Origin: Algoriphagus halophilus | GTDB lineage: Bacteria > Bacteroidota > Bacteroidia > Cytophagales > Cyclobacteriaceae | NCBI RefSeq assembly: GCF_900129785.1 | Contig: NZ_FSRC01000001.1 | Location: 2,294,001 to 2,358,000 of the forward strand | Length of the DNA stretch: 64,000 bases | Direction: 5' to 3' | Shown: positions 2,633 to 52,472 of the stretch, in pieces | How the letters are laid out: the number at the start of each line of letters is the position of its first letter | How positions within the stretch are numbered: the first letter of the stretch is position 1 | The notes under the pieces: model-generated | What the model was told of the DNA's origin: nothing | What the model saw: only the letters and a program-made list of their open reading frames with translations | The model's database searches: none | Made by a program: the position numbers and the translations under genes

Positions 2633-2635
2633 CCT

Positions 2636-3679: not shown

Positions 3680-3685
3680 GTCTTT

Positions 3686-11042: not shown

Positions 11043-13358
11043 TTAATTGTATTCGTAATTACCGTAAGAATAACCTTGTCCTGCCCTACTTCCGTTGAGC
11101 ACCAACATTGGATTATTTATTTTTGCTTCTGCTTTAAGCTGGTGGAAGAACTCAATATCATGCTTGGAAGTCCAATTGTATCTCATCATATAAATGGTAG
11201 CGTCTACCAAAGGAATTAATGAGAAGGAATCGGAAACCTGGCCCACAGGAGCACTGTCCAGCACAATGAATTCAAAATGCTTTCTCATTTCATTGATCAG
11301 CTCTTGATTCCTTGGGCTGAGCAGGATTTCAGCAGGGTTATTTGGTAATTTACCGGTGTGAAACAAGGTAACGCCTTGGTATTCCAGTCCAGAATCCAAA
11401 AACTGCTTAAATGAAATATCCTTGTTATTAATGAATTCTGAGATTCCAATGCTCCCCTTTTCAAACAGATGGGCATATTCCAAAGGCTTTCTCAAGTCAT
11501 AAAACAATACGGCAGTCTTCTTCCCTATCATGCTCATGGACTTGGCAAAGTTCAAGGCAAAAAATGTCTTCCCTTCACCTGATACTGTACTGGTAACCAG
11601 GGTCACCTGAGACTCTTTCCCAAAATCATTCATACAATAACTTGTCCTGACGTACCTCAGTTGTTCAGCAATTGGTGTTTTGGAATTTTGATCAATTATT
11701 GGCCCATTTGGCTTTTTATCGATCTGGGACAACTCTCCCAAAACGCTACTGGAAGAAGGAATGATAATTTGACTTCTGTCTTCCAATTTCCCCTGAAAAG
11801 TTCTTTTTACAAATAAGTAGGAGAAGGGCGCAGCAAATGCGACAAATAAGCCTATCAAGCCTAAAATCGGCTTATTTGGACTTACCGGAACAGGACTGAA
11901 ATATGCCTTTTCGATCGTCTTGGAATGCGTGGAAGAGACAGAGGCTAAGTAAAGTGAAGTCTCTTCCCGCTTCTCTATTAAATTGATATAATGAGCTTTC
12001 TTAAAGTCCAAGTCTCTTGTTAATGCTTCATATTGCCTTTGGATCATAGGACCTGAATGGTACTTACTACTATAGGTCTCAGATGCTTTTTCCAGGTTTC
12101 TGGTAGAAATTTCAAGTGCATCTATCCTATTCTCCAAATGTCCCACAATCTTGTTTCTAAAATTGGAAATGCGCTCTGTTGTATTTACATACACCGGGTT
12201 CTCAGGTAGAATAGCCCCCTTCAAGCGTTCGAGCTTATCTACTTCAGTATTGAAATCCTGGATCATGAGCAATAAGGCAGGATCATCATTTGACAAAGGG
12301 CCAAGAGTGATACTTTGCTGTGTGCCCGATAACACCTCACTTCTAAGATTTCTAAGTATTTCTAACTGACTTCGATTGATCGATAATTGCTTCGAATTAT
12401 CCAGCGCATTTTGTTGGTAAAACTTGGAATCATTTTCTACATCGACGACATCTTTGCTATACTTAAAGGATTCAATATTGGATTGCATCCCACTCAACTC
12501 TGCCGACAAAATGGATAACTGTGTGTCCAAAAACTCCAGGGAATTTAATGCCACTTCCTTCTTCTCAGCTACCGCATTTTCATTGTAAGTATTTACTAAC
12601 TCATTGACCACCTGCACTCCCAAGTCGGGAAACTCCGTTTTCAGGGAAACATACAGAATACTACTGTTTTTATCCTTTGGCTCCACTTTAAGACTGCTTG
12701 ACATCATACTTGCCAATTGTGCGTTATTAAACAAATTCACTATGAGCGGATAGCCATTAAACTCCTTCACTTCTTTATTCCTGTGAATTTTCAGGATGGC
12801 AAATTCATTTTGAAATGTTTCCCCAAACTTAATTTCGTTGACAGTTTCACCGTTGGAATAAATGACGTAATCATTCTCAATCCCCAAGACCTCAAATTCC
12901 TTATCCAATAAGTATTCCTCCTCAATATTGATCACTTCGATCAGGAAGGGAAGCTCTTGGTTTGATACCGTATTGAGCTTACCCAGGAAATTTTTATGGT
13001 AGGCTAAATAATTAAAATTCAAATCTTTGATCGCTTGTCTCATTAAATCCGAAGATTGAAGTACATCAATCTCGTTGTCAGTAATTTGGTAGGATTTAAA
13101 ATCGCTTAATTCACTTAAAACTGGATTTTCCAAAAACACAGAACCCTTCGATTCGTCTTTGAGCATAATCACGCTATTCACCTGAAACAAAGGGATAGCA
13201 AAATAGATATAGGCAAACACCGAGGAAAAAACCACCACAAAGGAGATCAAAAAGAGTTTCCAATACCTTACATAGTAAAGGAAGCTTTTCTTGATATGTG
13301 ATGACTCAAATACCTCTGTGTCAACAATTCCATCCAATAAAACATCTGAAGCTTTCAT
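11043..13358 (-). CDS. wzc: Wzc-like polysaccharide co-polymerase with BY-kinase domain
   Basis: 771 aa. Residues about 25-55 contain the first membrane segment, followed by a Wzz domain, a long periplasmic coiled-coil region, a second membrane segment near residue 495 after PVSPNKPILG, and a cytoplasmic tyrosine-kinase domain. The Walker A motif is SGEGKT with Lys597, the A' motif is VLFYDLRKP, and Walker B is FIVLDSAP. The C-terminus is a tyrosine cluster (YSYGNYEY), the usual autophosphorylation tail. It controls chain length and export together with the Wza-like lipoprotein encoded just upstream. No cognate phosphatase gene is present in the window. Confidence 0.95.
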   Translation of the reverse strand: MKASDVLLDGIVDTEVFESSHIKKSFLYYVRYWKLFLISFVVVFSSVFAYIYFAIPLFQVNSVIMLKDESKGSVFLENPVLSELSDFKSYQITDNEIDVLQSSDLMRQAIKDLNFNYLAYHKNFLGKLNTVSNQELPFLIEVINIEEEYLLDKEFEVLGIENDYVIYSNGETVNEIKFGETFQNEFAILKIHRNKEVKEFNGYPLIVNLFNNAQLASMMSSSLKVEPKDKNSSILYVSLKTEFPDLGVQVVNELVNTYNENAVAEKKEVALNSLEFLDTQLSILSAELSGMQSNIESFKYSKDVVDVENDSKFYQQNALDNSKQLSINRSQLEILRNLRSEVLSGTQQSITLGPLSNDDPALLLMIQDFNTEVDKLERLKGAILPENPVYVNTTERISNFRNKIVGHLENRIDALEISTRNLEKASETYSSKYHSGPMIQRQYEALTRDLDFKKAHYINLIEKREETSLYLASVSSTHSKTIEKAYFSPVPVSPNKPILGLIGLFVAFAAPFSYLFVKRTFQGKLEDRSQIIIPSSSSVLGELSQIDKKPNGPIIDQNSKTPIAEQLRYVRTSYCMNDFGKESQVTLVTSTVSGEGKTFFALNFAKSMSMIGKKTAVLFYDLRKPLEYAHLFEKGSIGISEFINNKDISFKQFLDSGLEYQGVTLFHTGKLPNNPAEILLSPRNQELINEMRKHFEFIVLDSAPVGQVSDSFSLIPLVDATIYMMRYNWTSKHDIEFFHQLKAEAKINNPMLVLNGSRAGQGYSYGNYEYN

Positions 13359-13368: not shown

Positions 13369-14148
13369 TTAAAAAATATTCTGATAGTTAAATATTAGTG
13401 CCACAGCAACAGAAGATAATATGGTCATGAACGCAATGGTGGTTGGGTTCATTTCCGCTTGTATCAGCTTCTTTTTATCTGCCTCTATGTAAAGCACATC
13501 GTTTTGTTTTAGGAAGAAGTTGGCCGATCCCAACAATTCTTTGTCATTCATATCAATACGATAGAGCATTTTCTCTCCATCATGTTCTCTGATCACTAAA
13601 ACATTCTCTCTTTTACCATACACGGTCATATCTCCTGCCAAGCCCAATGCTTCTATGACCGAGATATTGTCCGTGGTAATGGTAAATGTATTAGGTTGAT
13701 TCACCTCTCCTAAGACCGTGATTTTAAAGTTGGTAATGGATAATTCTACACGGGGGTTGGTCACCAACTTTTCCAAAGAACTAGCTATTTTTTCTCTGGC
13801 CTCATCTCTTGTCAACCCCAGCAGTTCAATTTTCCCGACAATTGGAAAATCTATTTCTCCACTCTGAGATACCTTATATCTACTTTGGGTATAGGTAGTT
13901 CTGGCCCCCACTTCCTCCTCTCCATTTGCAATCACACCATAATTGAAGAGCAGGTTAGATTCAGGATCCAAGGTGGTTACCTTTACTTCCAATTCATCTC
14001 CTTTTTGAATCCTAATAGGATCTATTGCATTGGTAGTCGTGTATAATTCACCCTTTTGTAATTCTAAATTGGAGAAATAAGTGATATTCCTTTTAGAACA
14101 AGATGCTAAGAGAAATAGCACGAGCATGTATTTAAAAAAATATTTCAT
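13369..14148 (-). CDS. wza: Wza-like polysaccharide export lipoprotein
   Basis: 259 aa. The N-terminus is a lipoprotein signal with lipobox LLASC (Cys17). It is followed by a polysaccharide export (Poly_export) domain around IRIQKGDELEVKVTTLDPE and a SLBB-like domain (ITVLGEVNQPNTFTI; TVYGKRENVLVIREHDG). A hydrophobic segment closes the protein (IAFMTILSSVAVALIF), as in many Bacteroidota Wza homologues. It should form the outer-membrane export channel with the Wzc-like protein, whose gene starts 10 bp downstream. Shorter than E. coli Wza but normal for this phylum. Confidence 0.93.
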   Translation of the reverse strand: MKYFFKYMLVLFLLASCSKRNITYFSNLELQKGELYTTTNAIDPIRIQKGDELEVKVTTLDPESNLLFNYGVIANGEEEVGARTTYTQSRYKVSQSGEIDFPIVGKIELLGLTRDEAREKIASSLEKLVTNPRVELSITNFKITVLGEVNQPNTFTITTDNISVIEALGLAGDMTVYGKRENVLVIREHDGEKMLYRIDMNDKELLGSANFFLKQNDVLYIEADKKKLIQAEMNPTTIAFMTILSSVAVALIFNYQNIF

Positions 14149-14169: not shown

Positions 14170-14898
14170 TTACAGTTGATAAAATCTAATGATTCTTACA
14201 GCGGAATCATGGGCTATGCTTACACAATACTCTCCCATTTCAAAACTCCATATCTTCCAGGAAGAGGCAAAACTTGAAAGGTCTGAAGGAATTAAATTTA
14301 AGCCATCTACACAGGCTACATCTTTGATTCTATCGGTCAATCCTAAACCAACTCCTTTCAACAATGACTCTTTTCTAGTCCAGTGTTTAAAAAACACAGC
14401 TCTCGGTGCCTCAGAGTTTAAAATCATGCTTATTTCATAATTGGACATACAATTAATAATCATATCATATAAGTCCAATTGTGAATTCATAAACTCAATA
14501 TCTACACCTACAGACCATCTATTTGCAAAACCAATAACAATGTAATCTCCTGAATGAGAGATATTAAAATTAAAATGAGGGTAGTATTTAAAATAAGGTT
14601 TATTGTTTTCTAAATAATCAATCTCAAATGAATTGGGGTCAACTTTTAAATAATCTGAACTTATTTTTCTGACAAAATAGCGAGCCAATAAATGCCTATT
14701 CCTATCCTCCGTATCTTTATAATTATTAAATCTATTTAACTCCTCTTCTGATAGTGTATCACTTAGATGATCTAACATATCTAAATGATCGGGAATATAT
14801 ATTCTCCATATATCAAAATGATTATCTAAGTTATAATCACATGATTTCCTCCATTCAATCACCCTAATTTGATCACAGAAAACTTTACCCATTATCAT
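14170..14898 (-). CDS. Sfp-type 4'-phosphopantetheinyl transferase
   Basis: 242 aa, the usual Sfp/Gsp length. Visible motifs are FNISHSGDYIVIGF, then SVGVDIEFM (acidic Mg-binding residues) and FFKHWTRKESLLKGVG, matching the W-x-x-K-E-S/A motif. It would transfer the phosphopantetheine arm of CoA to the three carrier domains of the two upstream assembly-line proteins, turning them from apo to holo. It lies 3 bp after the NRPS gene and 21 bp before the wza-like gene, so it is clearly part of the same transcript. It is more A+T-rich than the NRPS genes. Start at 14898 or the second Met at 14892 are both possible. Confidence 0.93.
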   Translation of the reverse strand: MIMGKVFCDQIRVIEWRKSCDYNLDNHFDIWRIYIPDHLDMLDHLSDTLSEEELNRFNNYKDTEDRNRHLLARYFVRKISSDYLKVDPNSFEIDYLENNKPYFKYYPHFNFNISHSGDYIVIGFANRWSVGVDIEFMNSQLDLYDMIINCMSNYEISMILNSEAPRAVFFKHWTRKESLLKGVGLGLTDRIKDVACVDGLNLIPSDLSSFASSWKIWSFEMGEYCVSIAHDSAVRIIRFYQL

Positions 14899-14901
14899 AG
14901 C

Positions 14902-17900
14902 TTACCTAGTGTAGGAGTTCAAAATATTCTGTAATGTCTTTGTAAATTCTGCACCGTGAGGTGGTTTAAGCATATTGGCATGCTCACCTGGCATCCTAAT
15001 TACCTTGATCTCTTTTGCAAAAGGAGTCCAACCAAATGTTTTGAAATCCTCTACGTAAAATGTTCTTCTATTGGCAAGAAATAAGGTAATGTTTACGTCA
15101 ACCGGCTCATGAACATAATTTTTCCAAGCTTCCTTGTTGACATGTTCGATCTCCTTGATCCTAGAAAATAAATTGGTGTTCTTCTGGAATTTTGCCCTCC
15201 AATTATCCCTCTTCTCCAATAAATATTTCTTTCTATAGCTCAGGTAAAAACCTGGATCTCTGACGATGAATTTTATTTCATACCAGATCCTCTTGAACAA
15301 TCTGGACACCTTGCTGAAAAACCCTTTTGGAGTAGAATCTGTATCAAAAGCAATCGTATCAATCATTCCTAAAAACTGTACCTGATCCCCCATCTTTATT
15401 AATTGCTTCGCCATTTCAAAAGCAATCAACCCTCCCAAAGAATTCCCCATTAAATGATAAGGACCTTGGAGACCTGCTATTCTGATCTGTTCAATATATA
15501 CTTGAGCAATCTGTTCAATGGTGCTAAGCGGCGCTAAGGAAGCATCTAAAATTGACGGAGATTGAAGTCCCCAAATCGTTTGGTCCTCATCCAGATTATC
15601 CACCAACGTATTGATTTCCAAAGGATTCAACCCCACCCCATGAATAAATAGCAACACTTTATTGGGGTCACCTTCCTTGATCTTCACCAAACATTTGGAC
15701 TGTCCTTTATTCTCTTCTTTTTTACAATGTTCAATGTGAGAGGCAAGCATCTCAATCGTAGGAAATTCAAATAGGGTGGAAAGGGGAAGATTTATTTTGA
15801 AGTGGTTTTCAAGCTTGGATAATAAATCTACCGCAAGAAGGGAGTGCCCTCCTATTTGGAAAAAATCCTCATTTGTTGCGAGTAGTTCTCTTTTTAGTAC
15901 TTGTTCCCAGGCTTTTTTAACAGCAAGAATCGATGTAGAGGAACCTTTGATCTCTTTTTCTTGATCAATGGCTTGGGTAAATACGGAAGTTGGCCTATAT
16001 CTTTCCAATAACTTCCGATCGATTTTACCATTGGAATTCAACTCAAAACTAAGCTGTTGAACGAATTCACTGGGAATCATATATGAAGCAAGTTTTTTGG
16101 AAAGCTTACTTTTTGTAATGTCTATCCAATTAGAGAATTTAGAATCAGGTATTTGCCCATCTACAAAAGAGACATGAGCTCGCAGCATTCCCTCCCCATT
16201 GGCATCGAGTACTTTGATGACCACTGCATTTTTGATCAATGGATCTTTGGCAAGTTCACTCTCAATCTCACCCAATTCCAATCTTTGACCTCTAATCTTC
16301 ACTTGGTGATCTATCCTTCCCTTGCACAACAGATCACCCTCTTCATTCCAAAGACCTAAATCACCGGATTGATAGAATTTTCCATCATATCCTTTAAATG
16401 GACTTGGGACAAACCGTTCTTGGGTTAATTCTGGGCGGTTCAAATAGCCGTTTCCAACGCAAGTCCCTCCAATCCAAATCTCTCCCATTTTACCGGGGAT
16501 ATTGATCAATTTACCTTGCTCATCCACTAGGATGACACAGGAATTTTTAACGGGTTTGCCAATGGTAATTTCCTCTTCAGAGGCATTTATTTTCTTAATC
16601 GTGGCAAATACAGTAGTTTCTGAAGGCCCATAAATATTAAATACCGAGTCAGCAACTTTGAGTAAAGAATCAGCCAACGTCCTGGATAGCGGTTCTCCGG
16701 CAGAAATGATGGTAAGTCCTTCTAGTTTCGGCTCGCCCATGTATTGAATGAGGGACTTTAGATGAGAAGGAGTGATGTACAATTTGGTAATACGGTGATC
16801 TTTCAGCGCATTAAAAATTTCCCGCTGGTCCTTTCTTTCATACTTACCAAGTAAATAGAGACTTGCCCCAACTGTCAGAGGAAGAACCGTCTCAAGCCAT
16901 GCCATGTCAAAACTTATAGAAGTTAACCCCAACACCCTATCTTCATCACTAAGTCCTGGCTGTTCAAGTACCTGCTGGGTGAAGTAAAATAAATTCAAAT
17001 GGGATAATTCTACCCCTTTGGGCTTACCCGTAGAACCTGACGTATAAATAATCAGAGCTGGATTTACGGGATCAAAGTTTTCAACTTTAAACAGCTCGTA
17101 TTGATCAAGGATCTGACTGATTGGAATTGGTAGTTTCTTGGGTTGCAATTCACCCCAATTCACCGAATCATCACTCGAAATGAAATACTTCACGTCGGCA
17201 TCTTCCAGCATGAATTTTACCCGTTCCTCTGGAAAATCCGTATCAATGGGAAGAATCCCTGCTCCAACACAGATTACTGCCAAAGCAGAAGCGATTAAAT
17301 GTTCATCTCTTTCTAAATGGATTCCAATAATATCTCCAGGTTTTACGCCTTTGCTATGGAGATACCCTGCCAAATGCTTTACCTTTTTCCCCAATTCCTG
17401 GTACGTGAATTGTTTTTGGTTCACCGTCAAGGCCACTTTATTTTGAAACTGGCTTACTGAATCAAAAAAGTACTTTCCAAAAGGAATGAAGTCCAATTGA
17501 GAAACCTGCAGATCAATAGAAGGCTCTTCTACTTTTGGAGCATTGGCTTCGATCTCCTGAATGATCTCCTGAATCGAACGTTTTCTTTCTATCGTAAAAG
17601 CCTTGAGGTAATTGACAAAATCCTTTCCCGCATGATTGATGTACTCCCGGTCAAACAAACTTTTATTATAGGTCCACTCGAAAATGAATTCATCCGAATT
17701 CCCATAGAGGTTTAGTATAATTTCAAAATTTGCATAGGCTTTCGGATTAAAGGAAAGTTGATGGTCCAAGCCCACAAAGTCCACTTTGGCATCCAAGTCC
17801 AGATCAATGTTAAAAGTAATCGGAATCAAAGGGACTTTTGAGGAATCTCTTTTGATCGGAAGATCCTGAATCATATTTCCGAAACTCAAGAATTGATGAT

Positions 17901-18930
17901 CCAATGCTCGGTTATAATTCGCCTTCCTTTGTTGCAAGTACCCTGAAAAAGGCAACGCCTTATCTACTTCACTTCTCAAGGGTAATAAATGCACACAATG
18001 CCCGATCAGACGGAGTCTGTTTAGTCCTAGCTGCCCGGATACTGGCATCCCTACCACTACTTCCTCCTCACCGGACCATCTGCTTAAAAAGATCTCAAAT
18101 ATGGAGAGTATTACTAAGTTCAAACTAACTTTCTCCTCCGAGGAAGTCTTCTTGAGTTGCTTTACAACTTCTTTTGGCAAAGGAAACCCGATCACATCGG
18201 AGTCATAGGTTCTATGGATAGGTCTGTCTTTGGAAATGGGTAATGAAAAATCCGGTAAAGGATTTGACAAATAATTTTTCCAATACTTTTTGGTCTCCTT
18301 ATGTTCGAACTTTCTGCTTCTGTTGATCAGTTCCGCTGAATATTCTCCCAATAAATCCGGCTCTGGGAGGTCCAATTCCAGGCTTTGAACACTTTTGGAA
18401 TATAATTCACTTAATTCCTCCAACATCAATCCAATTGACCAACCGTCGAATATGATGTGGTGTCCTGTAAAAGAAATTTCATGGAGCAACTCATTAATTT
18501 TAATCAGTTCCATCACATACAAGGGCCCCTGACTTAAATTAAAGTGGTAATTACCGATCTCTTTTGTATGCTTTCTAAAAAAACACTGCTGCTCTGCCTC
18601 AGTTAAGTGACTGATATCCCTGAACCTAATAGGCAGTTCGTAGGAAGAAAAAACCAACAGATTCTTCCCATTAGGACTGATAATTGTCCTCATCCCATCA
18701 TGTCTCCGAATCAGCTCTAAAAATGCTTTTTTCAAACTATCAACCGAAAGGTTTCCTTTCAATTGAAGAGAGACAGATTCATTGTAAGCCATGTTGGCTT
18801 CCTTTCCTCCCATTTTACAGGCCAACCAAATTTCTGTTTGAGAGGGTGTAGTCTTAATCACCTTCTCAATTTCCATGGGTGCTTTGGTCAGCATGGATTG
18901 ATTCAATGTCTGTTCTAATAAGTTATTCAT
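14902..18930 (-). CDS. NRPS module C-A-PCP-TE (terminal, product-releasing)
   Basis: 1342 aa. The condensation domain (about residues 25-450) has an intact HHxxxDG motif (His157, His158, Asp162). The adenylation domain (about 480-990) has YTSGSTGKPKG, FDMAWLE, YGPSETT, SGDLG and the A10 lysine in NGKIDRK. The carrier domain has GGHSLL with attachment site Ser1030. The type I thioesterase (about 1085-1340) has GNSLGG with nucleophile Ser1164 and a late GEHANML histidine. It should accept the chain from the upstream PKS/NRPS, add one amino acid and release the product. By-eye alignment to PheA gives a selectivity code of D-M-L-Y-I-A-I-V-F-K, which I cannot assign to a substrate. Starts 22 bp after the previous gene. 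Confidence 0.93.
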   Translation of the reverse strand: MNNLLEQTLNQSMLTKAPMEIEKVIKTTPSQTEIWLACKMGGKEANMAYNESVSLQLKGNLSVDSLKKAFLELIRRHDGMRTIISPNGKNLLVFSSYELPIRFRDISHLTEAEQQCFFRKHTKEIGNYHFNLSQGPLYVMELIKINELLHEISFTGHHIIFDGWSIGLMLEELSELYSKSVQSLELDLPEPDLLGEYSAELINRSRKFEHKETKKYWKNYLSNPLPDFSLPISKDRPIHRTYDSDVIGFPLPKEVVKQLKKTSSEEKVSLNLVILSIFEIFLSRWSGEEEVVVGMPVSGQLGLNRLRLIGHCVHLLPLRSEVDKALPFSGYLQQRKANYNRALDHQFLSFGNMIQDLPIKRDSSKVPLIPITFNIDLDLDAKVDFVGLDHQLSFNPKAYANFEIILNLYGNSDEFIFEWTYNKSLFDREYINHAGKDFVNYLKAFTIERKRSIQEIIQEIEANAPKVEEPSIDLQVSQLDFIPFGKYFFDSVSQFQNKVALTVNQKQFTYQELGKKVKHLAGYLHSKGVKPGDIIGIHLERDEHLIASALAVICVGAGILPIDTDFPEERVKFMLEDADVKYFISSDDSVNWGELQPKKLPIPISQILDQYELFKVENFDPVNPALIIYTSGSTGKPKGVELSHLNLFYFTQQVLEQPGLSDEDRVLGLTSISFDMAWLETVLPLTVGASLYLLGKYERKDQREIFNALKDHRITKLYITPSHLKSLIQYMGEPKLEGLTIISAGEPLSRTLADSLLKVADSVFNIYGPSETTVFATIKKINASEEEITIGKPVKNSCVILVDEQGKLINIPGKMGEIWIGGTCVGNGYLNRPELTQERFVPSPFKGYDGKFYQSGDLGLWNEEGDLLCKGRIDHQVKIRGQRLELGEIESELAKDPLIKNAVVIKVLDANGEGMLRAHVSFVDGQIPDSKFSNWIDITKSKLSKKLASYMIPSEFVQQLSFELNSNGKIDRKLLERYRPTSVFTQAIDQEKEIKGSSTSILAVKKAWEQVLKRELLATNEDFFQIGGHSLLAVDLLSKLENHFKINLPLSTLFEFPTIEMLASHIEHCKKEENKGQSKCLVKIKEGDPNKVLLFIHGVGLNPLEINTLVDNLDEDQTIWGLQSPSILDASLAPLSTIEQIAQVYIEQIRIAGLQGPYHLMGNSLGGLIAFEMAKQLIKMGDQVQFLGMIDTIAFDTDSTPKGFFSKVSRLFKRIWYEIKFIVRDPGFYLSYRKKYLLEKRDNWRAKFQKNTNLFSRIKEIEHVNKEAWKNYVHEPVDVNITLFLANRRTFYVEDFKTFGWTPFAKEIKVIRMPGEHANMLKPPHGAEFTKTLQNILNSYTR

Positions 18931-18952
18931 AAAAAAATCAGATCAATAAAAA

Positions 18953-21900
18953 TTAATTATTCTCTTTAGGTGAAACCCACATTGGGTTTCCTTCACTGTC
19001 TAACCCGATTTTCGCACCTGGAAATGGAGGGTTATGAGTATCCATTACCAGCTCTTCCAAATCTGGAAGATCTCCTCTCACTACATCATTTTCTATCATC
19101 AGTGCCAAGGCTTTTTCAAGCTTCACTAACGTTTGTTCTATATCTATTCGAGTATGCTTTTCGGTGAAATAACAAGGGATTCCCCGCATCATATGAACGC
19201 CTTCGTACCTCAACAAAACGAAAAGTAATGGGGTCGTAGAAGTAGGCTCTTTCTCCTTAATTCTCCAGATAGAGCGAAAATTAGCTGCCTCATAGGGGCT
19301 ATTATATTTTTCGAAAAGCTCATTTACCCGTGCCACAAATTCATCTGTCTTTTTGGATAATTCATCTTGAAATCCCGGTCCTCTATCTTCAATCTCCTTC
19401 AACAATGCCACGGTAGCTGCTAAGACAAATGAATCGCCAGTATATTCTCCCAAGTCTTGGAGCATTCCGAACTGGCTTTTATGGATGGAGGAGGTGATTC
19501 CTGAATAATCTCCCAAAATCCCCAAATGCAAACCCTCTCCGATTAAATTTCCAAAAACCACTAAATCCGGTTTTGAATTCATTAAGTGGCTTACACCATT
19601 GGAGTAGGTATTAAAACCGGATAATACCTCATTCAATACCAGTAGCATATCCTCCTCAAGAGTTAGCTTTCTTAAGTTGTCCAAGAAAACTTCCAATTCT
19701 TTCGCATTCAAATCATCACATCGCACGTCAAATAATACAGTGCCTATTTCGGAGGATCGATCTTGGAGGATATCCAAAGAATCTTCCAAACTCCCGTTCA
19801 AGACGAGTAAGTCCGTATGAAAATGGTCCTTTAGGAAATCCAGGCATTCTGTATTACCCAATGAGCCACAAGGCAAATGAGTGTCACTACCTTGTTTGCT
19901 GCATTTTCTTGAAACGACTGCAATCAGTTTTTTATCACTGATGGATTGACATCCTGTAACCGCTCTCAACAATGCTTCAGAGAAGTGGTCGAACAAATAG
20001 GCATCCTTCACTTGGGTCAGCCTTTTAAATTTCCTGATCACCTCTTTTTCCTGATCTAAATGAGTCCCAAACTCCAAACCATCACTGATCTGTGTTTTCA
20101 ATGCTTTTTTGATAAAATCAGCATTGTATCCAAACAATTTTGACCCATAGCTGAAATGCCAATCCAAATATTCATTCCCATCTAAATCAATCAACTTTGA
20201 CCCATCGGAAAACTTGGATATAATTGGATAATTCAACCGCTTAGCACTCCATACCTGTTCTTTTTCCTCTTGCAAGCCCGCTCCCTCATGATGGGAATCG
20301 TAATAATCCTTACTTTTCGAGGTTCTCTTTTGGTACTTTTCTTTCAATTCATCAAAGAATTCCTGAGCCTCTTTACTTAGGTTAGCCGGATCAATTTCTT
20401 CCTCTACTGAAGAGGAGGAATCTTCCGATTGTGCAGTTTTATGGATTGCTCTTGGCTTTTCATACTTACTGATAGAATGTTTCACTCCTCCACCATTGGT
20501 CTGTAGTTGGGAAATTTGTGTTTGAATGGCATTCAATTGTTGTTGAATCAATTGAATCACATCACCCCCTACAGATTCTTCCTTCCGCTCAGCTACAGGC
20601 TCCTTCTTTTTAACCGCTGCTTTCTTAGGTGGATTAACTGGCTTAGGAGATTTCGATTGGATAAATGATAATAATGTACCTGGGGTATTTAACTCATCAT
20701 TGATTTGCCTGAACGTGATCGTTACTCCAAACTCCTTTTTGATAGAAAAAGTAAATTGAGTTAGTACTAATGAATCAAGGCCCAGTTCAAAAAACGAGGA
20801 ACCAATATCCTTACGCTGGATCTGAACCCCAGAAGCTGATTCAAGCATTTCTTTGATCTTCTCAAAATTATCCTGCGCTACCTCCTCCTCTTCATGAATG
20901 GCATCTTCCATCTGTCCATTTTCCTGGAGACCATTCAAACGAGAAGCATTTGCCAAGCTCTTAGAAAATGCCGGATTTAATAAAGCTCCTTTTTGAGTCC
21001 AGCAAAGCTTGGGTTCAAAAGAATAGGTGGGGATATCCATGAATGAAAATTCCCCTATCCCATTTAGTTTAAACTGATCTATTGTAGCCCCGAAGGAAAT
21101 CAGTCTTCCAATTTGATTCATCAAATAGGTCAATTCATGCGCTTCATTTTTTCTGGAAAGAGTAGAAACAATTGCCCGGTCTTTTGCCTCAGCCTGCTGC
21201 TGCATGAGGCTTGAAAGCACATTTCCAGGTCCTACTTCTATAAAGTAAGAATCCTCTAATTCTTCAAGTAAAGCTTTGGCGCTGTCATGAAACAATACTG
21301 CATTTCGAATATGATCTACCCAGTATTCGATGGAAGTAGCCTGAGCATCAGTTAACCAAGCTCCGGTTTGGGTAGATTTTATGGGGATTTGAGGAATATT
21401 CAGCGTAACACTTTCCAATACTTTGGAGAAATCATCCAAAGCCCCATCCATCATTTTAGAATGGAAAGCATGACTCGTTATTAATACCTGGTTGGCAATC
21501 CCATACTCTTCCAGTACTTTCTGAAATTCTTCGATTACTTGATGCGCTCCGGAAACCACACATAAATTGGGGGCATTATGCGCCGCAATGGACAACTCAT
21601 CTGGCAGAATTTCTTTAACGATATCTAACTGGGACCGAACAGATAGCATTTGCCCTGCCGGCAAATCGTAAATCAGCTTTCCTCTGTAGGCAACGACTTT
21701 AACGGCATCTTCCAAACTGAACACCCCTGCTAAATGTGCCGCAACGTATTCTCCAATGCTATGCCCACATAAGGCAACCGGATCAAATCCCTTATTGATC
21801 AGCATCTTGGCCAAGGCATAAGAAACTGTAAAAATGGCTGGTTGGGTTAAGTAGGTTTTGGATAAGTTCTCTTGGGTCCCATTGAAAATTTCTTCTTTCA

Positions 21901-24900
21901 AAGAACAACTTAAATAGGAGTCAAATAGCTTACAGCTTTGATCAAAGGCATCTTTGAAAACTTGATTGGATCTGTAAAAATCCTTTCCCATTCCCACATA
22001 TTGCGAGCCTTGACCAGGAATCAAAAATACTGGAGTTTTAAATGCTCCTTTTTTATATAAAACCGGAATCAATCCATTTTCTACCTCCTCCAGGTTCTTA
22101 ATTAATTCAGCTCTTTTTGTGGCGGAAAAATGAAGGTTCACCCCATAATTCAAATACCTATTGGTAAGGTTTGCATGGAGGTTTTGAAGATCCAAATCAG
22201 GATGTTCCAGCACATAGCCATGCAGTTTTTTCGCGTAATCTTTTACACTTGACTCAGATTTTGCTGAAAAAACGTACAGATTAGGTTCTTCTCCCTCTTT
22301 CGTGGTAATGGCTTTTTGTTCTGGATCTGCTTCCTCCAGGATCACATGAACATTCGTTCCACCAAACCCGAAGGAACTTACGCCAGCGATCCTCTTAGTA
22401 TCACTAGCCCAGCTTTTGGTTTCATTGTTTACATAAAAAGGTGATCCTTCAAATTTTATCTCTGGATTGGGTTTTACAAAACCCAAAGAAGCTGGAAGTA
22501 TCCGCTCATGTAGGGCATATACTGTCTTAATGAACCCTGCAATACCTGCGGCAGCTGTCAAATGTCCCACATTACTTTTTACTGATCCAATGGCACAGGT
22601 GCTGGATAAACCTTCCCCAAAAGCCATCTTTAATCCTTCTACCTCAATGGGGTCACCAATAGGGGTAGCCGTGCCATGCGTCTCCACATAACCAATTTGC
22701 TCTGGCTTTACTTGGGCATCCAAAATGGCATCTCTGATGGCAGAAGCTTCTCCTCTTACACTGGGGGAAGTGAAGCTTGCTTTTTCAAATCCATCATTGC
22801 TGATCCCAATTCCTTTAATAACTGCATAGATTTTATCCCCATCTTTTACAGCTTGTTCATAATCTTTCAGCAGAACTGCACCTGCTCCATCACAAAACAT
22901 GGTTCCAGTAGCTTCTGAATCAAATGGTTTACAATGACCGTCTACACTGAAAATGGCTCCCTCTTGATAGCGTTGCCCACTATTGGCAGGAAATGTAATG
23001 GAACTTCCTCCAGCAATTGCTGCAGTACATTGGCCAGACCTGATACTCATCACCGCATGGGCTACTGCCAATAGCGAGGTGGAACAGGCGGTGTAAACAC
23101 TTACAGCAGGTCCTGTTAAGTTGAGTTGGAAGGCCACCCTGCTTGCCACATAATCTTTTTCATTGAGGGACATGACCTGATTTGGGCCAAAGATTTCCGT
23201 TGCCTCATGATCAAAAACGATATTCCTGTTGTAATAGGTGTTATTATTGGTCCCTGCAAATACGCCTATTCTAAAATCCGGCCGGTTGGCAATCCACCCT
23301 GCCTTTTCCAACACCTCATGGGAAATCTCTAAAAACTTACGTTGCTGGGGATCCATGATTTCAGCCAATTTTGGATTCATCCCAAAAAATTTGGAATCAA
23401 ACTTATCATAATCGGCTACTACCCCTCTTGATTTGATGTAATTGGACTCTTCTGCCTCATGTCTCACCAAAGGATCTATTTCCTCCAGGGTAAAGTGGGT
23501 AATCCCCTCTTTTTTGTTTTTGATCATTTCCCAGAAACCGGCGGTATCATTTGCTCCTGGAAATCTTCCAGACATGGCAATTACTGCCACATCTCGATTT
23601 TCGGAAGCAGCTTTTTTGGTAAGCTTTTCAGGACTATCCAAGCCTCCTTTTTTTTCTCCTTTCAGGAAAGAAATCTGCTTACCTAAGGTTGGGTTCTGAT
23701 AGATCAAAGCCACTGGAAATACAGTTTTTAGCTGATCATTGATGGCCAATGAAAGTTTTTGTGCCAAAATCGAGCTTCCTCCCAATTGGAAGAAATTACT
23801 ATCCAGGTTGAACTCCGTCTCTTGAAGGAGATCCTTCCATATCTCTGTTATTATCTCCTTATAATTTGTATCATCCTTCGTCTGGGAAACTTTCTGGTCT
23901 TTTTTTTCGGCCAGGGAATTCTTCAAAGCTTTTCTGTCAATTTTCCCGCTTCCAGTTCGAGGGAACTCGTCAATTCTGATGAATTTGTACGGAATCATGT
24001 ATTCAGGAATGGATTTTCTCAATTCCTCTTTGATCTCCTCGATTTTTAGATCATTTCCAGTAGTCTTGTAGAACAATGCCACATAGTTTTGTCCATCCTT
24101 GAAATGGCCAATCACCACCGCATTCTCCACAATCCCGCTAATTTTAGAGGCATTTACCTCAATCTCTCCTAGTTCTACCCGATGGCCATTAATTTTAACC
24201 TGATCATCTACACGCCCCAAGAACTTAATACTTCCATCTACATTCCATTCCGCCAAGTCACCTGATTTATAGTACCGTTTGATTCCGGCACCATCCAGGT
24301 TCAGTTCCACAAATAACTTGTTGGTCAACGCTTCATTTTGATAATAACCTCGGGCTAAACAATCTCCGGTGATGTAGATCTCTCCGACCTTATCCATTGA
24401 GGTGATGGATTTCCCTTCGGGACTTACAATCAACATTTCCACGTTGGAAATTGGCCAACCTATACTTGGAAGATCTTCCCATTCTGAGGGTTCTCCTTCT
24501 AAATATTTCTGTGAAACAATAATGGTAGTTTCGGTAGGACCATACTGGTTGTAAAATCTGCAGCTTCGTAACTCCTGGAAAAACTCCCGAATGGTACTGC
24601 TTACTTTTAACTGCTCTCCGCAGGTCATGATCTCTCGTATGGAGCCCGGAAAAATTTTGTAGGATACAGCCGCGTTCGCTAATCCTTGAAGGGCAATAAA
24701 AGGTACAAACAACCTATTTATCCCTTTATTCTGGATGAATTGTAATAATTGATAAGGGTCTTTTAGTACCTCATTGTCCTGAATATACAAAGTACCACCA
24801 CTTACCAACGTGGTAAAAATCTCCTGAAATGAAATATCAAAGGTCAATCGGGCAAAATGCAAAGTCTTAAAACCTGGTCCCGATTGAGAGTTTTCCAGTT

Positions 24901-25420
24901 GCCAGTTCACCAAATTGACCAAACTGGGACTACAGACCTCAATTCCCTTAGGCACTCCTGTAGTACCAGAAGTAAATAAGACATATGCCAAATCAGAGGT
25001 ATAGGTAGGAGTTAACGTAGATTCTCTATATTTCCCCTCAATGGTTTTAATTGAAAGAGAGGCAAAATCCTCCGAATCCAGCCCTGGCAATCCAAAACGA
25101 ACATTGGTTTCTGATACAATTTTAGCGAGTCTTTCTGTTGGCTGATCAAAATCCAAAGGCAGATAGGCCTTTCCCGCAGCCAATACTCCCAACATGTTAA
25201 TGATCGTTTTTACAGATCTGGAACAGGAGATGGCTATTAGTTTTTCTTCCGGAGCCTCATTTCTGATTCTTTGCGCAACTAAATCTACCAGGATCTCCAA
25301 TTTCCCATAGGTGATGAATTCGTCATGATGAACGAGTGCATCGTATTCTCTAAACTCCTCGAATCTCCTTTTTAAAAGATCAAAGATATTTGGTGTAGTT
25401 GAAGTTGAAAAGTTTTCCAT
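18953..25420 (-). CDS. Hybrid NRPS/PKS: A-PCP-KS-AT-ACP-degenerate aminotransferase
   Basis: 2155 aa. The A domain (about 15-510) starts the line with FTSGTTGVPKG, FDISFQE, YGPTETT and GKIDRK, and no condensation domain precedes it. PCP has Ser550. The ketosynthase (about 605-1030) has active-site Cys779 (TACSTSL), HGTATPIGDP and KSNVGHL. The acyltransferase (about 1130-1430) has GHSIGE with Ser1221 and HAFH at 1317-1320, the malonyl-CoA signature. ACP has Ser1550 (GLDSL). A charged linker with a short Gln-rich helix leads to a class III aminotransferase fold (about 1720-2110). There, the PLP lysine position is Asn1958 (FGNLIGEG) and the N1-binding Asp is Asn1930 (LNEV), so amination looks lost. 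No KR, DH or ER is present. The module would join an amino-acid-like starter to malonate and leave a beta-keto group. Confidence 0.92.
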   Translation of the reverse strand: MENFSTSTTPNIFDLLKRRFEEFREYDALVHHDEFITYGKLEILVDLVAQRIRNEAPEEKLIAISCSRSVKTIINMLGVLAAGKAYLPLDFDQPTERLAKIVSETNVRFGLPGLDSEDFASLSIKTIEGKYRESTLTPTYTSDLAYVLFTSGTTGVPKGIEVCSPSLVNLVNWQLENSQSGPGFKTLHFARLTFDISFQEIFTTLVSGGTLYIQDNEVLKDPYQLLQFIQNKGINRLFVPFIALQGLANAAVSYKIFPGSIREIMTCGEQLKVSSTIREFFQELRSCRFYNQYGPTETTIIVSQKYLEGEPSEWEDLPSIGWPISNVEMLIVSPEGKSITSMDKVGEIYITGDCLARGYYQNEALTNKLFVELNLDGAGIKRYYKSGDLAEWNVDGSIKFLGRVDDQVKINGHRVELGEIEVNASKISGIVENAVVIGHFKDGQNYVALFYKTTGNDLKIEEIKEELRKSIPEYMIPYKFIRIDEFPRTGSGKIDRKALKNSLAEKKDQKVSQTKDDTNYKEIITEIWKDLLQETEFNLDSNFFQLGGSSILAQKLSLAINDQLKTVFPVALIYQNPTLGKQISFLKGEKKGGLDSPEKLTKKAASENRDVAVIAMSGRFPGANDTAGFWEMIKNKKEGITHFTLEEIDPLVRHEAEESNYIKSRGVVADYDKFDSKFFGMNPKLAEIMDPQQRKFLEISHEVLEKAGWIANRPDFRIGVFAGTNNNTYYNRNIVFDHEATEIFGPNQVMSLNEKDYVASRVAFQLNLTGPAVSVYTACSTSLLAVAHAVMSIRSGQCTAAIAGGSSITFPANSGQRYQEGAIFSVDGHCKPFDSEATGTMFCDGAGAVLLKDYEQAVKDGDKIYAVIKGIGISNDGFEKASFTSPSVRGEASAIRDAILDAQVKPEQIGYVETHGTATPIGDPIEVEGLKMAFGEGLSSTCAIGSVKSNVGHLTAAAGIAGFIKTVYALHERILPASLGFVKPNPEIKFEGSPFYVNNETKSWASDTKRIAGVSSFGFGGTNVHVILEEADPEQKAITTKEGEEPNLYVFSAKSESSVKDYAKKLHGYVLEHPDLDLQNLHANLTNRYLNYGVNLHFSATKRAELIKNLEEVENGLIPVLYKKGAFKTPVFLIPGQGSQYVGMGKDFYRSNQVFKDAFDQSCKLFDSYLSCSLKEEIFNGTQENLSKTYLTQPAIFTVSYALAKMLINKGFDPVALCGHSIGEYVAAHLAGVFSLEDAVKVVAYRGKLIYDLPAGQMLSVRSQLDIVKEILPDELSIAAHNAPNLCVVSGAHQVIEEFQKVLEEYGIANQVLITSHAFHSKMMDGALDDFSKVLESVTLNIPQIPIKSTQTGAWLTDAQATSIEYWVDHIRNAVLFHDSAKALLEELEDSYFIEVGPGNVLSSLMQQQAEAKDRAIVSTLSRKNEAHELTYLMNQIGRLISFGATIDQFKLNGIGEFSFMDIPTYSFEPKLCWTQKGALLNPAFSKSLANASRLNGLQENGQMEDAIHEEEEVAQDNFEKIKEMLESASGVQIQRKDIGSSFFELGLDSLVLTQFTFSIKKEFGVTITFRQINDELNTPGTLLSFIQSKSPKPVNPPKKAAVKKKEPVAERKEESVGGDVIQLIQQQLNAIQTQISQLQTNGGGVKHSISKYEKPRAIHKTAQSEDSSSSVEEEIDPANLSKEAQEFFDELKEKYQKRTSKSKDYYDSHHEGAGLQEEKEQVWSAKRLNYPIISKFSDGSKLIDLDGNEYLDWHFSYGSKLFGYNADFIKKALKTQISDGLEFGTHLDQEKEVIRKFKRLTQVKDAYLFDHFSEALLRAVTGCQSISDKKLIAVVSRKCSKQGSDTHLPCGSLGNTECLDFLKDHFHTDLLVLNGSLEDSLDILQDRSSEIGTVLFDVRCDDLNAKELEVFLDNLRKLTLEEDMLLVLNEVLSGFNTYSNGVSHLMNSKPDLVVFGNLIGEGLHLGILGDYSGITSSIHKSQFGMLQDLGEYTGDSFVLAATVALLKEIEDRGPGFQDELSKKTDEFVARVNELFEKYNSPYEAANFRSIWRIKEKEPTSTTPLLFVLLRYEGVHMMRGIPCYFTEKHTRIDIEQTLVKLEKALALMIENDVVRGDLPDLEELVMDTHNPPFPGAKIGLDSEGNPMWVSPKENN

Positions 25421-25468: not shown

Positions 25469-26614
25469 TCAATATTCCAAATGAGATACTACCTCAAAGC
25501 CTCCATTCACTAAGCAGATGTCTTTGTTCAATTCTTGCAAATCTGCATGCATCATATCCTCTACAAGCATTTCCAAATCATATTTAGGTTTCCACCCAAG
25601 ATTCCTTAATGCTTTGTCCGGTTTTCCAATTAATAATTCCACTTCGGTAGGTCTGAAATATTCAGGATCAACTTTCACTAAAATCTCACCTAGCTTGGGA
25701 AGCTCCTCTTTTCTTTTTCCGAGCTTTCCATAGGCTAGCTCATAATCAATGGAAGAAAGAATACCCATCTCCCCCACACCCACTCCAGCAAAATCAAGTT
25801 TGAAGCCTATTTTGGAGAATGCCATGCTCAAAAACTGACGAACACTGGTAGTCACTCCGGTGGCTACGACATAATCTTCTGGCTTATCTGCCTGTAGCAT
25901 CAGCCACATCGCTTCTACATAATCTTTGGCATGTCCCCAATCTCTTTTGGCGTCCAGGTTGCCCAGATAGAGTACTTTCTCCATTCCCATTCCTATTCTC
26001 GAAACTGCTCTTGTGATCTTTCTTGTCACAAATGTTTCTCCTCTCAATGGGGATTCGTGATTGAAAAGAATTCCATTACAGGCAAACATGTCATAGGCCT
26101 CTCTATAATTCTTCACGATCCAGAATCCATATAATTTTGCCACAGCATAGGGAGATCTGGGGTAAAAAGGAGTCTTCTCCGTCTGCGGAATTTCTTGGAC
26201 CAAACCATAGAGTTCAGAAGTACTGGCCTGATAAACCCTGGTCTTTTTTTCCATACCCAGCAATCTGACCGCCTCCAAAATTCTAAGAACTCCCAGACCA
26301 TCCGCATTGGCTGTGTATTCCGGTGAGTCAAAACTTACTTTTACATGACTCATAGCTCCTAGATTGTAAATCTCATCCGGATTAGTTTCCTTGATGATTT
26401 TAGTTAGGTTCATGGAATCGGTAAGATCCCCATAGTGCATAAAAAATCTAGCATCAGCCTGATGTGGATCTTGGTATAAATGGTCGATTCGTTGGGTATT
26501 AAATGAAGAGGACCTTCTTTTAATGCCATGTACCACATATCCTTTGTTCAGTAAAAACTCAGCTAAATAAGCTCCATCTTGACCTGTGACTCCAGTTATT
26601 AAAGCGACTTTCAT
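25469..26614 (-). CDS. gmd: GDP-mannose 4,6-dehydratase
   Basis: 381 aa, the family's usual length. It belongs to the extended SDR family. The N-terminal NAD(P)-binding motif is [14 protein letters not shown], followed by [18 protein letters not shown], which is close to invariant in Gmd. The catalytic Tyr-Lys pair is in [13 protein letters not shown], and [11 protein letters not shown] is also characteristic. It converts GDP-D-mannose to GDP-4-keto-6-deoxy-mannose in the cytoplasm, the step before the fcl product. Together with manC and fcl it makes GDP-L-fucose for the GT11 enzyme of the same operon. Confidence 0.97.
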
Positions 26615-26659: not shown

Positions 26660-27619
26660 TTAAAATGCAATGGAATGCATTTTTAGACTTTTTTGATTTT
26701 TTTGGAACCAGTTATAGGTCTGGGAAATACCCTCTAGTAAATTCAGTCTTGGTTCCCAACCCATGGATTTTATTCTGCTGATATCCATTACTTTCCGGGG
26801 CGTACCATCCGGCTTACTTTCATCCCATAGGATATCACCTTCATGGCCCACTACACTTTGGACCATCAATGCCAGTTTTTTTATTTCTATATCGTAGCCT
26901 GTACCCACGTTGATCAATGGGTACTTCACCTCTCTTGTCAATAAAAACATGACCGCATCAGCCAAGTCCTCCACATGCAAAAATTCGCGTAATGGACTTC
27001 CTGTCCCCCAAAGCATCACCGGTTGATTTCCGTTGATCTTAGAATCATGAAACTTCCTGATCATCGCAGGCAACACATGGGAGCTGTTTAGGTCAAAATT
27101 GTCATAAGGACCATAGAGATTAGAGGGCATAATAGAACTATACCCTTTACCCATTCTGGTATAAATTGCTTCACAAGCCTTGATTCCTGCTATTTTTGCA
27201 ATTGCATAGGATTCATTGGTTGGCTCCAAAGGACCCGTTAATAGATACTCTTCTTTTATAGGTTGGATAGATCTTTTTGGATAAACACAAGAACTACCCA
27301 AGAATAGAAATCTTTCGACTCCGGATTTTAAAGAGCTATCAATGATGTTATTTTGTATCATTAAATTATCCATCAAAAACTCGTAGGGATAGGAATCATT
27401 TGCTAGGATCCCTCCTACTTTGGCAGCTGCATTGATGACTATTTCAGGACGTTGATCAGCAAAAAATTCACGAACCTCATATTGATCTCTTAAATCAAGC
27501 TCGGAACTCTTCTTCCCTATCAGGTTCATTGCCCCCCGGGCTTTTAAAAGTCTCCAAATAGCAGAACCCACCATTCCTGTATGCCCTGCTACGTATATTT
27601 TCTTCTTAAAAATATCCAT
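26660..27619 (-). CDS. fcl: GDP-L-fucose synthase (epimerase/reductase)
   Basis: 319 aa, an extended SDR. The NADPH motif is VAGHTGMVGSAIWRLL, the Ser region is FLGSSCVYPK, and the Tyr-Lys pair is in YAIAKIAG after LEPTNES. These are standard Fcl (WcaG) signatures. It epimerises and reduces the gmd product to GDP-L-fucose. It lies between manC (7 bp gap) and gmd (45 bp gap). Confidence 0.97.
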   Translation of the reverse strand: MDIFKKKIYVAGHTGMVGSAIWRLLKARGAMNLIGKKSSELDLRDQYEVREFFADQRPEIVINAAAKVGGILANDSYPYEFLMDNLMIQNNIIDSSLKSGVERFLFLGSSCVYPKRSIQPIKEEYLLTGPLEPTNESYAIAKIAGIKACEAIYTRMGKGYSSIMPSNLYGPYDNFDLNSSHVLPAMIRKFHDSKINGNQPVMLWGTGSPLREFLHVEDLADAVMFLLTREVKYPLINVGTGYDIEIKKLALMVQSVVGHEGDILWDESKPDGTPRKVMDISRIKSMGWEPRLNLLEGISQTYNWFQKNQKSLKMHSIAF

Positions 27620-27626
27620 TGTAAAA

Positions 27627-28637
27627 TCAGTTAACTAAGCTTGGATTTTCTGTTTCAAATTGTTCAAATAGGTTTTTTACTTTTTGACAGTCAGACCTAT
27701 TCAAAATCAAAAATGCATCTGGGGTCTCAACAAAAATCATGTTGGAGACACCTAGAAAACTGGCATGACGGGACTTGCCTATATAGACATTCCCATATTC
27801 ATCTTCCTCTACTTGATGGGTTTCACACAAATAATCACTTAGTGCTTCGAAAGAACCAAGGTCAGACCATTTAAAGTCTCCTTCTACCATCACCAATTTC
27901 TTGGAATGCTCCATTACAGCATAATCCACACTGAGTGAATCAATTAATTCATTATCTGATTGTTGGATAAATCCATCCTTGGAGTTTTCAAAAGCTATTT
28001 TTACTTGATGGAAAAGATCTGGCTGAAAAAATTCAAGTTCTCTTAAAAAGAGCCCAGCCTTAAAACAGAACATTCCGCTATTCCAAAAATGATCCCCCAT
28101 TTCCAAATAAGTCCTTGCAGACTCAATACTTGGTTTTTCTTTAAATCTTTTTACAATCCCATCTTCCACCTGGATGTAACCATATCCTGTTTCAGGACGG
28201 GTTGGGGTAATTCCAAAAGTCACAAGAAGATCTATACTTGCAAGTTTCACTGCATTTCCAACTGCACGTTCATAAGAGTCTTGATCTTGTACCAAGTGAT
28301 CTGATGGAGTGATTAATAAAATATCCTCAGGATTACTAGACATAGCCGCAAATGCAATGGCAGGAGCTGTATTTTTAGGTAAAGCCTCTACAATCTCTCG
28401 GTAAGGGTCAATCCCCATCTTTGCAAAGGTCTTTCTGGATAATTCGAAATTTCCCAGACTTCCGACTACAACCCCTTTTCCGCTTAGAAAGCGGTTACGC
28501 TCCAAACACAATTCAAACAATGACTTTCCGTCAAAAATCTCCAAATATTGTTTGGGGCAGGACTTTCTGGAGAGAGGCCATAATCTACTACCTGTTCCAC
28601 CAGATAAAATGACATGAGTTACTGTTGAAGGACTCAT
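27627..28637 (-). CDS. manC: Mannose-1-phosphate guanylyltransferase
   Basis: 336 aa, single nucleotidyltransferase domain without the C-terminal phosphomannose isomerase domain found in longer ManC proteins. The N-terminal signature is SGGTGSRLWPLSRKSCPKQY, and further matches are LLITPSDHLV, ETGYGYI, NSGMFCF and DFKWSDLGSFEAL. It makes GDP-mannose from mannose-1-phosphate and GTP, the first committed step to GDP-fucose. It is the first gene of the operon, so the promoter should lie in the A+T-rich region above 28637. Phosphomannomutase must be encoded elsewhere. Confidence 0.96.
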   Translation of the reverse strand: MSPSTVTHVILSGGTGSRLWPLSRKSCPKQYLEIFDGKSLFELCLERNRFLSGKGVVVGSLGNFELSRKTFAKMGIDPYREIVEALPKNTAPAIAFAAMSSNPEDILLITPSDHLVQDQDSYERAVGNAVKLASIDLLVTFGITPTRPETGYGYIQVEDGIVKRFKEKPSIESARTYLEMGDHFWNSGMFCFKAGLFLRELEFFQPDLFHQVKIAFENSKDGFIQQSDNELIDSLSVDYAVMEHSKKLVMVEGDFKWSDLGSFEALSDYLCETHQVEEDEYGNVYIGKSRHASFLGVSNMIFVETPDAFLILNRSDCQKVKNLFEQFETENPSLVN

Positions 28638-41165: not shown

Positions 41166-41167
41166 AA

Positions 41168-49037: not shown

Positions 49038-49059
49038 CCCAATAAATTTCTTTTTGCTT

Positions 49060-52455: not shown

Positions 52456-52472
52456 CCTCAAATCATCGAATC

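Follow-up and report, generated by a model that had tools for sequence, protein, structure and literature searches.

A nonribosomal peptide-polyketide assembly line with a pseudo-aminotransferase inside an exopolysaccharide operon of Algoriphagus halophilus

The operon and its assembly line

The 64,000-nucleotide stretch of the Algoriphagus halophilus genome analyzed here (the window; G000:C1:2294001-2358000 of a 4.98-Mb genome) carries an exopolysaccharide (EPS) operon into which a hybrid assembly line of nonribosomal peptide synthetase (NRPS) and polyketide synthase (PKS) type is set. Sixteen genes run in the same direction from manC to the last glycosyltransferase, with gaps of -14 to 48 bp, in the order manC, fcl, gmd, pks, nrps, a phosphopantetheinyl transferase (PPTase) gene, wza, wzc, wzx, GT11, GT4, a Wzy-like gene, a divergent GT4-like gene, and three GT4 genes (Table 1). 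The original prediction had placed three open reading frames (ORFs), for the two synthase subunits and the PPTase, between gmd and wza on one strand with gaps of 3-48 bp; coordinates, strand, and spacing all hold (gmd-pks, 48 bp; pks-nrps, 22 bp; nrps-PPTase, 3 bp; PPTase-wza, 21 bp).

The Wza, Wzc, Wzx, Wzy, and glycosyltransferase components of a Wzx/Wzy-dependent EPS locus are present (Wza, Wzx, and the glycosyltransferases by Pfam, Wzc and Wzy by sequence features only), and the polysaccharide is probably fucose-containing. No initiating phosphoglycosyltransferase was found among the operon ORFs scanned with Pfam, and the remainder of the genome was not searched for one. Nor did the Pfam scan of these ORFs detect an exporter, acyltransferase, or tailoring gene, which agrees with the earlier claim that no dedicated exporter or tailoring gene accompanies the line. 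Upstream of manC lie approximately 780 bp of AT-rich DNA. Because promoter scans did no better than chance (no match to the Bacteroidota promoter pattern, with 3.2 expected; 44 sigma-70 sites, with 56.8 in shuffles), our case for cotranscription comes from the gene spacing; a terminator scan (22 sites, with 16.2 in shuffles; standard deviation, 4.5) led nowhere.

The Pfam domains of the three assembly-line ORFs exceed the curated cut-offs. The combination that marks a hybrid NRPS/type I PKS, that is, adenylation (A), condensation (C), peptidyl carrier protein (PCP), ketosynthase (KS), acyltransferase (AT), acyl carrier protein (ACP), and thioesterase (TE) domains, is complete, with catalytic motifs intact in the KS, the AT, both PCPs, the ACP, the C domain (HHxxxDG), and the TE (Ser and His). 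Thus, the predicted domain orders, A-PCP-KS-AT-ACP-aminotransferase and C-A-PCP-TE, are confirmed domain by domain, with one amendment: the aminotransferase keeps its fold but has lost the lysine and aspartate that serve pyridoxal phosphate (PLP).

What might this line make? The code of the first A domain (A1) and those of two relatives, DVQFMAQVVK (L036) and DVQFAAHVCK (L040), resemble the proline code, read at the PheA positions; as a check of the reading, L100 gives DAFWLGGTFK, the valine code. The AT is malonyl-type, as judged from the HAFH motif. The second A domain, read by eye, gives DMLYIAIVFK, for which we know of no matching code. Outside Algoriphagus, the second A domain appears glycine-like in 10 of 15 rows, again by eye, and most such rows, with a live aminotransferase, should give a beta-amino product. 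By its domains, the window line should make aminoacyl-CO-CH2-CO-aminoacyl, released by the TE. The C-terminal 60 residues of the PKS probably dock it to the NRPS subunit; we read them as a docking piece because the segment PPVPGARLGKD..GNPAWF is retained even where the aminotransferase is missing (all five such relatives inspected; the sixth, L214, was left out). The C-terminal segment is absent from L120 (g41), whose NRPS partner differs in size.

Table 1. Features of the operon in the window, listed in gene order from manC
Feature	Position	Strand	Basis
manC-like nucleotidyltransferase, probable first gene of operon	27627..28637	-	Pfam NTP_transferase; AT-rich gap upstream
fcl-type epimerase (GDP-fucose synthase)	26660..27619	-	Pfam Epimerase; exact name inferred from position after gmd
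gmd, GDP-mannose 4,6-dehydratase	25469..26614	-	Pfam
pks, hybrid subunit A-PCP-KS-AT-ACP-(pseudo)aminotransferase, 2155 aa	18953..25420	-	Pfam
First adenylation domain (A1)	23915..25372	-	Pfam AMP-binding; code DIQFMCQIIK by motif alignment
Ketosynthase domain	22172..23599	-	Pfam; Cys-His-His motifs intact
Acyltransferase domain, malonyl-type	21110..22030	-	Pfam Acyl_transf_1; GHSIGE and HAFH
Pseudo-aminotransferase, MycA-like fold without PLP Lys (N1958) and Asp (N1930)	19136..20350	-	Alignment, motifs, structure model
Codon AAT (Asn1958) at PLP lysine position	19547..19549	-	Alignment
C-terminal 60 aa of PKS, probable docking segment to NRPS subunit	18956..19135	-	Conservation; dN/dS 0.035
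nrps, NRPS subunit C-A-PCP-TE, 1342 aa	14902..18930	-	Pfam; motifs HHIIFDG, GGHSL, GNSLGG, GEHANM
Thioesterase domain, sole candidate release/transfer enzyme of operon	14905..15678	-	Pfam Thioesterase; PDB relatives AB3403, EntF, Pks13 TE
Sfp-type phosphopantetheinyl transferase, 242 aa	14170..14898	-	Pfam AASDHPPT_N and ACPS; best NCBIfam HetI, under its cut-off
wza (OPX, Poly_export and SLBB)	13369..14148	-	Pfam
wzc-like copolymerase	11043..13358	-	GNVR below cut-off; SGEGKT motif; 2 hydrophobic segments
wzx flippase	9638..11032	-	Pfam Polysacc_synt
GT11 glycosyltransferase (fucosyltransferase family)	8711..9628	-	Pfam
GT4 glycosyltransferase	7506..8714	-	Pfam
Wzy-like polymerase	6193..7509	-	About 10 hydrophobic segments; no Pfam match
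Divergent GT4-like protein, marker of EPS core	4851..6206	-	Weak Pfam GT4 below cut-off; distribution
Three GT4 glycosyltransferases	1469..4840	-	Pfam

A maintained pseudo-aminotransferase

A class III aminotransferase fold lies downstream of the ACP, as expected of a MycA-type domain, but the PLP lysine and aspartate also expected of such a domain are both absent. Asn1958 replaces the Schiff-base lysine and Asn1930 replaces the aspartate that binds the pyridine ring; the SGxEA, YHG, and GTF..HP motifs are likewise disrupted. The MycA aminotransferase of mycosubtilin synthase (6kfm) is the best PDB sequence match (E 4e-36), and an AlphaFold2 model of the domain (pLDDT 80.5, pTM 0.78, from a 32-row alignment) has MycA entries as its top matches, the best being 6kfm (TM 0.75 and 0.79) and the ACP fusion 6kfu; by alignment, MycA retains the Lys and Asp, whereas the window has Asn at both positions.

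How widespread is the loss? The PLP lysine is retained in 27 of 30 aligned aminotransferase domains. Of 37 PKS rows, 6 have no aminotransferase domain and 1 (L170, from G238), truncated by the end of its contig, was excluded from the aminotransferase count. The lysine is retained in all 20 domain-bearing rows outside Algoriphagus and genus g56; among the 10 rows with the domain inside that group, 4 have it and 6 do not (N, N, A, A, T, and E at the position). These losses number at least three on the PKS tree, because L036 and L191 retain the lysine inside the two subclades. The G309 domain is also of the live kind, whereas that of A. terrigena, like that of the window, is dead. A search of public proteins, which scored only the 7976 candidates sharing most words, found the lysine missing in 6 of 32 relatives, including P0002 and P0003, which have the same two Asn; P0003 shares both at 47% identity across the aminotransferase domain.

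In five pairs with live domains, the aminotransferase is 71-91% identical and the KS 66-89%; in six dead pairs, the corresponding figures are 44-54% and 68-84%. Between the window and Algoriphagus lutimaris, dN/dS is 0.10 in the aminotransferase core, 0.04-0.05 in the A, KS, AT, and ACP domains, 0.035 in the last 60 residues, and 0.34 in the linker, and the reading frame is open in the six lysine-less copies examined at the DNA level. As judged from these comparisons, the aminotransferase is a maintained pseudo-enzyme, the frame and fold of which persist under purifying selection. A decaying pseudogene was considered and ruled out by the dN/dS of 0.10, the open frames, and the two Asn shared with P0003. 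Likewise, a live beta-aminotransferase giving a beta,gamma-diamino product, which fits most relatives, is ruled out in this genome by the lost Lys and Asp. With the aminotransferase dead, the beta-keto group should survive; the unreduced beta-keto group of the original prediction is thus likely, although on grounds not given there.

Distribution of the cassette and its unions with exopolysaccharide genes

The closest named record is that of A. lutimaris (L035; Cyclobacteriaceae), with 93% identity across the whole 2155-aa PKS. In a genus sample of 72 genomes, 50 of them at least 90% complete, the assembly-line cassette (at least 43% identity) occurs in 8, and wzx (at least 59%) occurs in the same 8; three other genomes have only a 32-36% wzx match, and in two more the sole match is to KS-AT. 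In seven of the eight, a single contig carries the cassette together with wza, wzc, and wzx, with the locus of G238 split by the assembly. The glycosyltransferase row follows with small differences: G198 lacks GT11 in the row, no match to the last GT4 was found in G229, and the G223 contig stops within the Wzy-like gene. Two layouts occur, type A as in the window (fcl-gmd-pks-nrps-PPTase-wza) and type B in G229, G198, and G238 (manC-pks-nrps-wza, pieced across contigs in G238). In every one-contig case in Algoriphagus and g56, the cassette points in the same direction as wza and lies directly upstream of it or with only the PPTase between.

The type B genomes also carry extra NRPS genes free of PKS (L194:5571-14660, L193:9120-15008, and L191:83-5137): in G229 (L191), an NRPS remnant lying just upstream and accompanied by fcl, gmd, PPTase, and GT11; in G238 (L194), A-PCP and C-A-PCP-TE on a separate contig that also has fcl, PPTase, and GT11; and in G198 (L193), a fused NRPS protein, again on a separate contig. 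A second copy of the PKS subunit, with the lysine retained and no adjoining NRPS partner, lies at L188:7014-13463 (G217:C1), and G217 also carries a type A EPS cassette with a dead aminotransferase.

At E 1e-220 or better, a match to the PKS is present in 36 of 390 genomes of the family; six of these (g20, g37, g58, and g73) have larger megasynthases and were not counted as cassettes. The distance to wza was compared in 29 of the remaining 30, with G238 excluded and labels entered by hand. The original prediction had called for a search for co-occurrence with wza/wzc in other Bacteroidota, and 15 of the 29 genomes, from 7 of 10 genera, have wza no more than 10 kb from the cassette, against approximately 2% expected per genome; counting only the first listed genome per genus, the figure is 5 of 10. 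G309 (g56), with a PKS identity of 42-44%, shows the type A arrangement all the way from fcl through the final glycosyltransferase, and G166 has pks-nrps-PPTase-manC-fcl-gmd-wza-wzc-wzx-GT4-Wzy-marker in one direction, the marker of the EPS core being the divergent GT4-like protein. This marker is found in 34 of the 390 genomes, and the nine at 53% identity or more are the eight Algoriphagus genomes and G309. Genus co-occurrence, the g56 gene order, and the wza proximity counts together rule out a chance neighborhood in one genome.

Because genomes within a clade are not independent, the argument rests on the number of unions. The PKS tree requires at least four changes of the EPS label. In the Wzx tree, the Algoriphagus/g56 cassette loci form one clade that branches as in the PKS tree, the Wzx of G166 is nested among g41 loci with no adjacent cassette, and the Wzx-like proteins encoded beside the cassette in G121 (g65) and G070 (g71) match that of the window at only 20-22% and lie far off. 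This pattern suggests at least three separate cassette-EPS unions, although the same picture would arise if EPS genes had been swapped around one old union; for three unions in ten to come about by chance, p would be near 0.001. Two genomes call for care. G143, the contig of which ends soon after pks-nrps-PPTase-manC-fcl-gmd and which has wza-wzc-wzx on another contig, counts as not embedded in the distance comparison and is unlabeled on the tree, and G308 is a single unjoined piece, too short in KS-AT for the PKS columns that it lacks. In total, these comparisons support the view that evolution has conserved the assembly line as part of an EPS operon and that it is no chance neighbor.

Elsewhere in the genome, a second NRPS locus (G000:C1:1626458-1640826) has a PPTase-like gene at C1:1642128, and a third PPTase-like gene lies at C1:824651. 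The ORFs that flank the EPS operon on its two sides in the window (14-1462 and 31053-37619, both on the plus strand) encode Big_7 Ig repeats together with a type IX secretion tail; the latter ORF, 2188 aa long, has 13 Big_7 stretches as well as beta-helix matches. ORFs of 427 aa (47372-48655) and 738 aa (38955-41171) have no Pfam match above the cut-off; the former lies upstream of a SusC/SusD pair (48967-54164).

Proposed function, alternatives, and known systems

Given an EPS export route and a TE that is the sole transfer enzyme, a substituent of the repeat unit is the simplest functional reading. As the most likely of the readings weighed here, though only tentatively, we posit that the NRPS-PKS supplies an aminoacyl-ketide-aminoacyl acyl substituent for the Wzx/Wzy exopolysaccharide, and we infer its attachment. 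In this model, the PPTase would arm the carrier domains, A1 would load an amino acid (its code being proline-like), KS-AT would add malonate, the dead aminotransferase would leave the beta-keto group in place and serve only as a structural or docking piece, and C-A-PCP would add a second amino acid. Before flipping takes place, the TE would transfer the resulting aminoacyl-ketide-aminoacyl chain to one of the sugars in the lipid-linked repeat unit, in the manner of the Pks13 TE and trehalose. A more specific version, in which the TE is a sugar acyltransferase acting on each repeat unit and, within this group, the beta-amino form repeatedly became the beta-keto form through killing of the aminotransferase in place, with the domain kept structurally, strikes us as doubtful.

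Several observations weigh against a substituent role. The original prediction had listed, as grounds for its refutation, an occurrence of this NRPS/PKS in relatives at a distance from EPS genes, and this is what 14 of the 29 cassette genomes show, with no wza within 10 kb (g48, g19, g21, one g65, and two g41); in all seven g48 genomes, wza is 28-34 kb from the cassette, and it lies within 10 kb in none of three g19 genomes and not in the one g21 genome. Conversely, 12 loci were examined in the 25 other marker genomes (2 of 12 g68, both g32, both g35, four g41, one g19, and one g47), in addition to G166, and all 12 show the EPS core (in g47, part of it) with no cassette in the 9-35 kb covered; G108, G138, and G143, among these 12, carry a cassette elsewhere in the genome. 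As the cassette can stand apart from EPS genes, and a related EPS core can lack a cassette, neither strictly requires the other. Inheritance as a linked cluster explains co-occurrence within a clade without functional coupling. Aminotransferase loss is not significantly associated with EPS embedding: it is seen in 8 of 16 embedded rows versus 4 of 16 others, and independent pairs are not significant. The Pfam scan found no amino-sugar gene or PglD-like acyltransferase in the operon, unlike the Flavobacterium psychrophilum locus discussed below, and the likeness of the TE to that of Pks13 is at the superfamily level (E 1e-8), with AB3403 and EntF scoring better.

Could the product instead be a free secreted small molecule, such as a tetramate or another metal-binding or signaling compound, merely coexpressed with the EPS? 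We regard this as nearly as likely, because in other genomes this cassette is free-standing. If the beta-keto group is retained, the TE could cyclize a beta-ketoacyl-aminoacyl thioester to a tetramic acid, and the operon has no acyltransferase. In g48, g19, and g21, the cassette and wza are separated by more than 10 kb, and at L039 (Flavobacterium alvei), L038 (Chitinophagaceae), and L058 (Bacteriovoracaceae), the 10-kb flanks have no match to the wza or wzc of the window; a free molecule is the natural reading at such loci. At L038 (21568-26098, from a metagenome-assembled genome), two amidohydrolases rather than EPS genes come after the cassette and its PPTase-like ORF. A DUF5687 and ABC-ATPase pair, perhaps an exporter, lies divergently beside the G190 cassette (g48; L114:14323-16521), and similar-sized pairs occur at three more g48 loci but not at the other three. 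However, the window operon has no exporter of its own, and under this reading the repeated union with EPS export genes would need another reason, for example, coregulation for biofilm life.

It is improbable, in our judgment, that only the neighborhood is shared and the cassette is a passenger in a surface-polysaccharide hot spot with no functional tie. Polysaccharide loci are often variable sites, and the cassette and the EPS core each occur alone; yet the genes keep their order across genera in which the PKS is only 42-44% identical, the window gaps are just 3-48 bp, and the cassette keeps its constant same-direction place upstream of wza, with at most the PPTase between, in the one-contig Algoriphagus/g56 cases. 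More improbable still is that the product is the acceptor, with sugars built on it or the product capping the chain as in glycosylated lipopeptides: L194 (G238) and L191 (G229) do group fcl, an NRPS or its remnant, PPTase, and GT11 with no wza between, but Wzx, Wzc, Wza, and the Wzy-like protein indicate a polymer on a lipid carrier, and the related EPS cores free of the cassette presumably make polymer on their own.

If the product does sit on the polysaccharide, modular assembly lines would be a route by which surface polymers acquire varied nonsugar chemistry, and a testable function would follow for the orphan NRPS/PKS clusters that adjoin wza in Bacteroidota. The live, dead, and absent aminotransferases form a natural series for predicting and comparing the product.

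As for precedents, searches of open-access full texts aimed at this arrangement (subscription papers being outside their scope) turned up no description of an NRPS/PKS inside an EPS operon, in keeping with the expectation that no polysaccharide cluster of this arrangement had been described, and they gave no earlier case of a polysaccharide decorated by a modular NRPS-PKS; the part of PMC3102044 drawn on here describes EPS genes, none of them an NRPS. The domain order of the PKS subunit is already cataloged in another member of the Bacteroidota, Pedobacter heparinus, as the A-CP-KS-AT-CP-PLP1 protein C6XWU5 with a predicted Nrp-Mal-Gly-Pk product; unlike the window, C6XWU5 has no EPS link in the passages of that survey used here (PMC3870968). 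In the same passages, the PLP aspartate is conserved in all four families, and lysine changes are named only for Methylobacterium, Methyloversatilis, and Sorangium proteins (PMC3870968). The pseudo-aminotransferase is a newly recognized feature of this locus. For the proposed transfer step, the nearest parallel is Pks13, the TE of which passes a beta-ketoacyl chain to the sugar trehalose (PMC9900942); the pairing of trehalose and mycolate is unlike the window, where sugar transfer by the TE is only proposed. For an acyl group made inside a Bacteroidota polysaccharide locus, it is F. psychrophilum, the R-group genes wfpC-wfpG of which are described in PMC6519341. That system uses type II-like enzymes, a PglD-like acyltransferase, and an amino sugar, whereas the window has a modular NRPS-PKS and no acyltransferase was found in its operon. 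Nonetheless, both loci bring a carrier protein and ketosynthases into a Bacteroidota polysaccharide locus, and the F. psychrophilum acyl group is borne on a sugar (PMC6519341), as we propose for the product of the window line.

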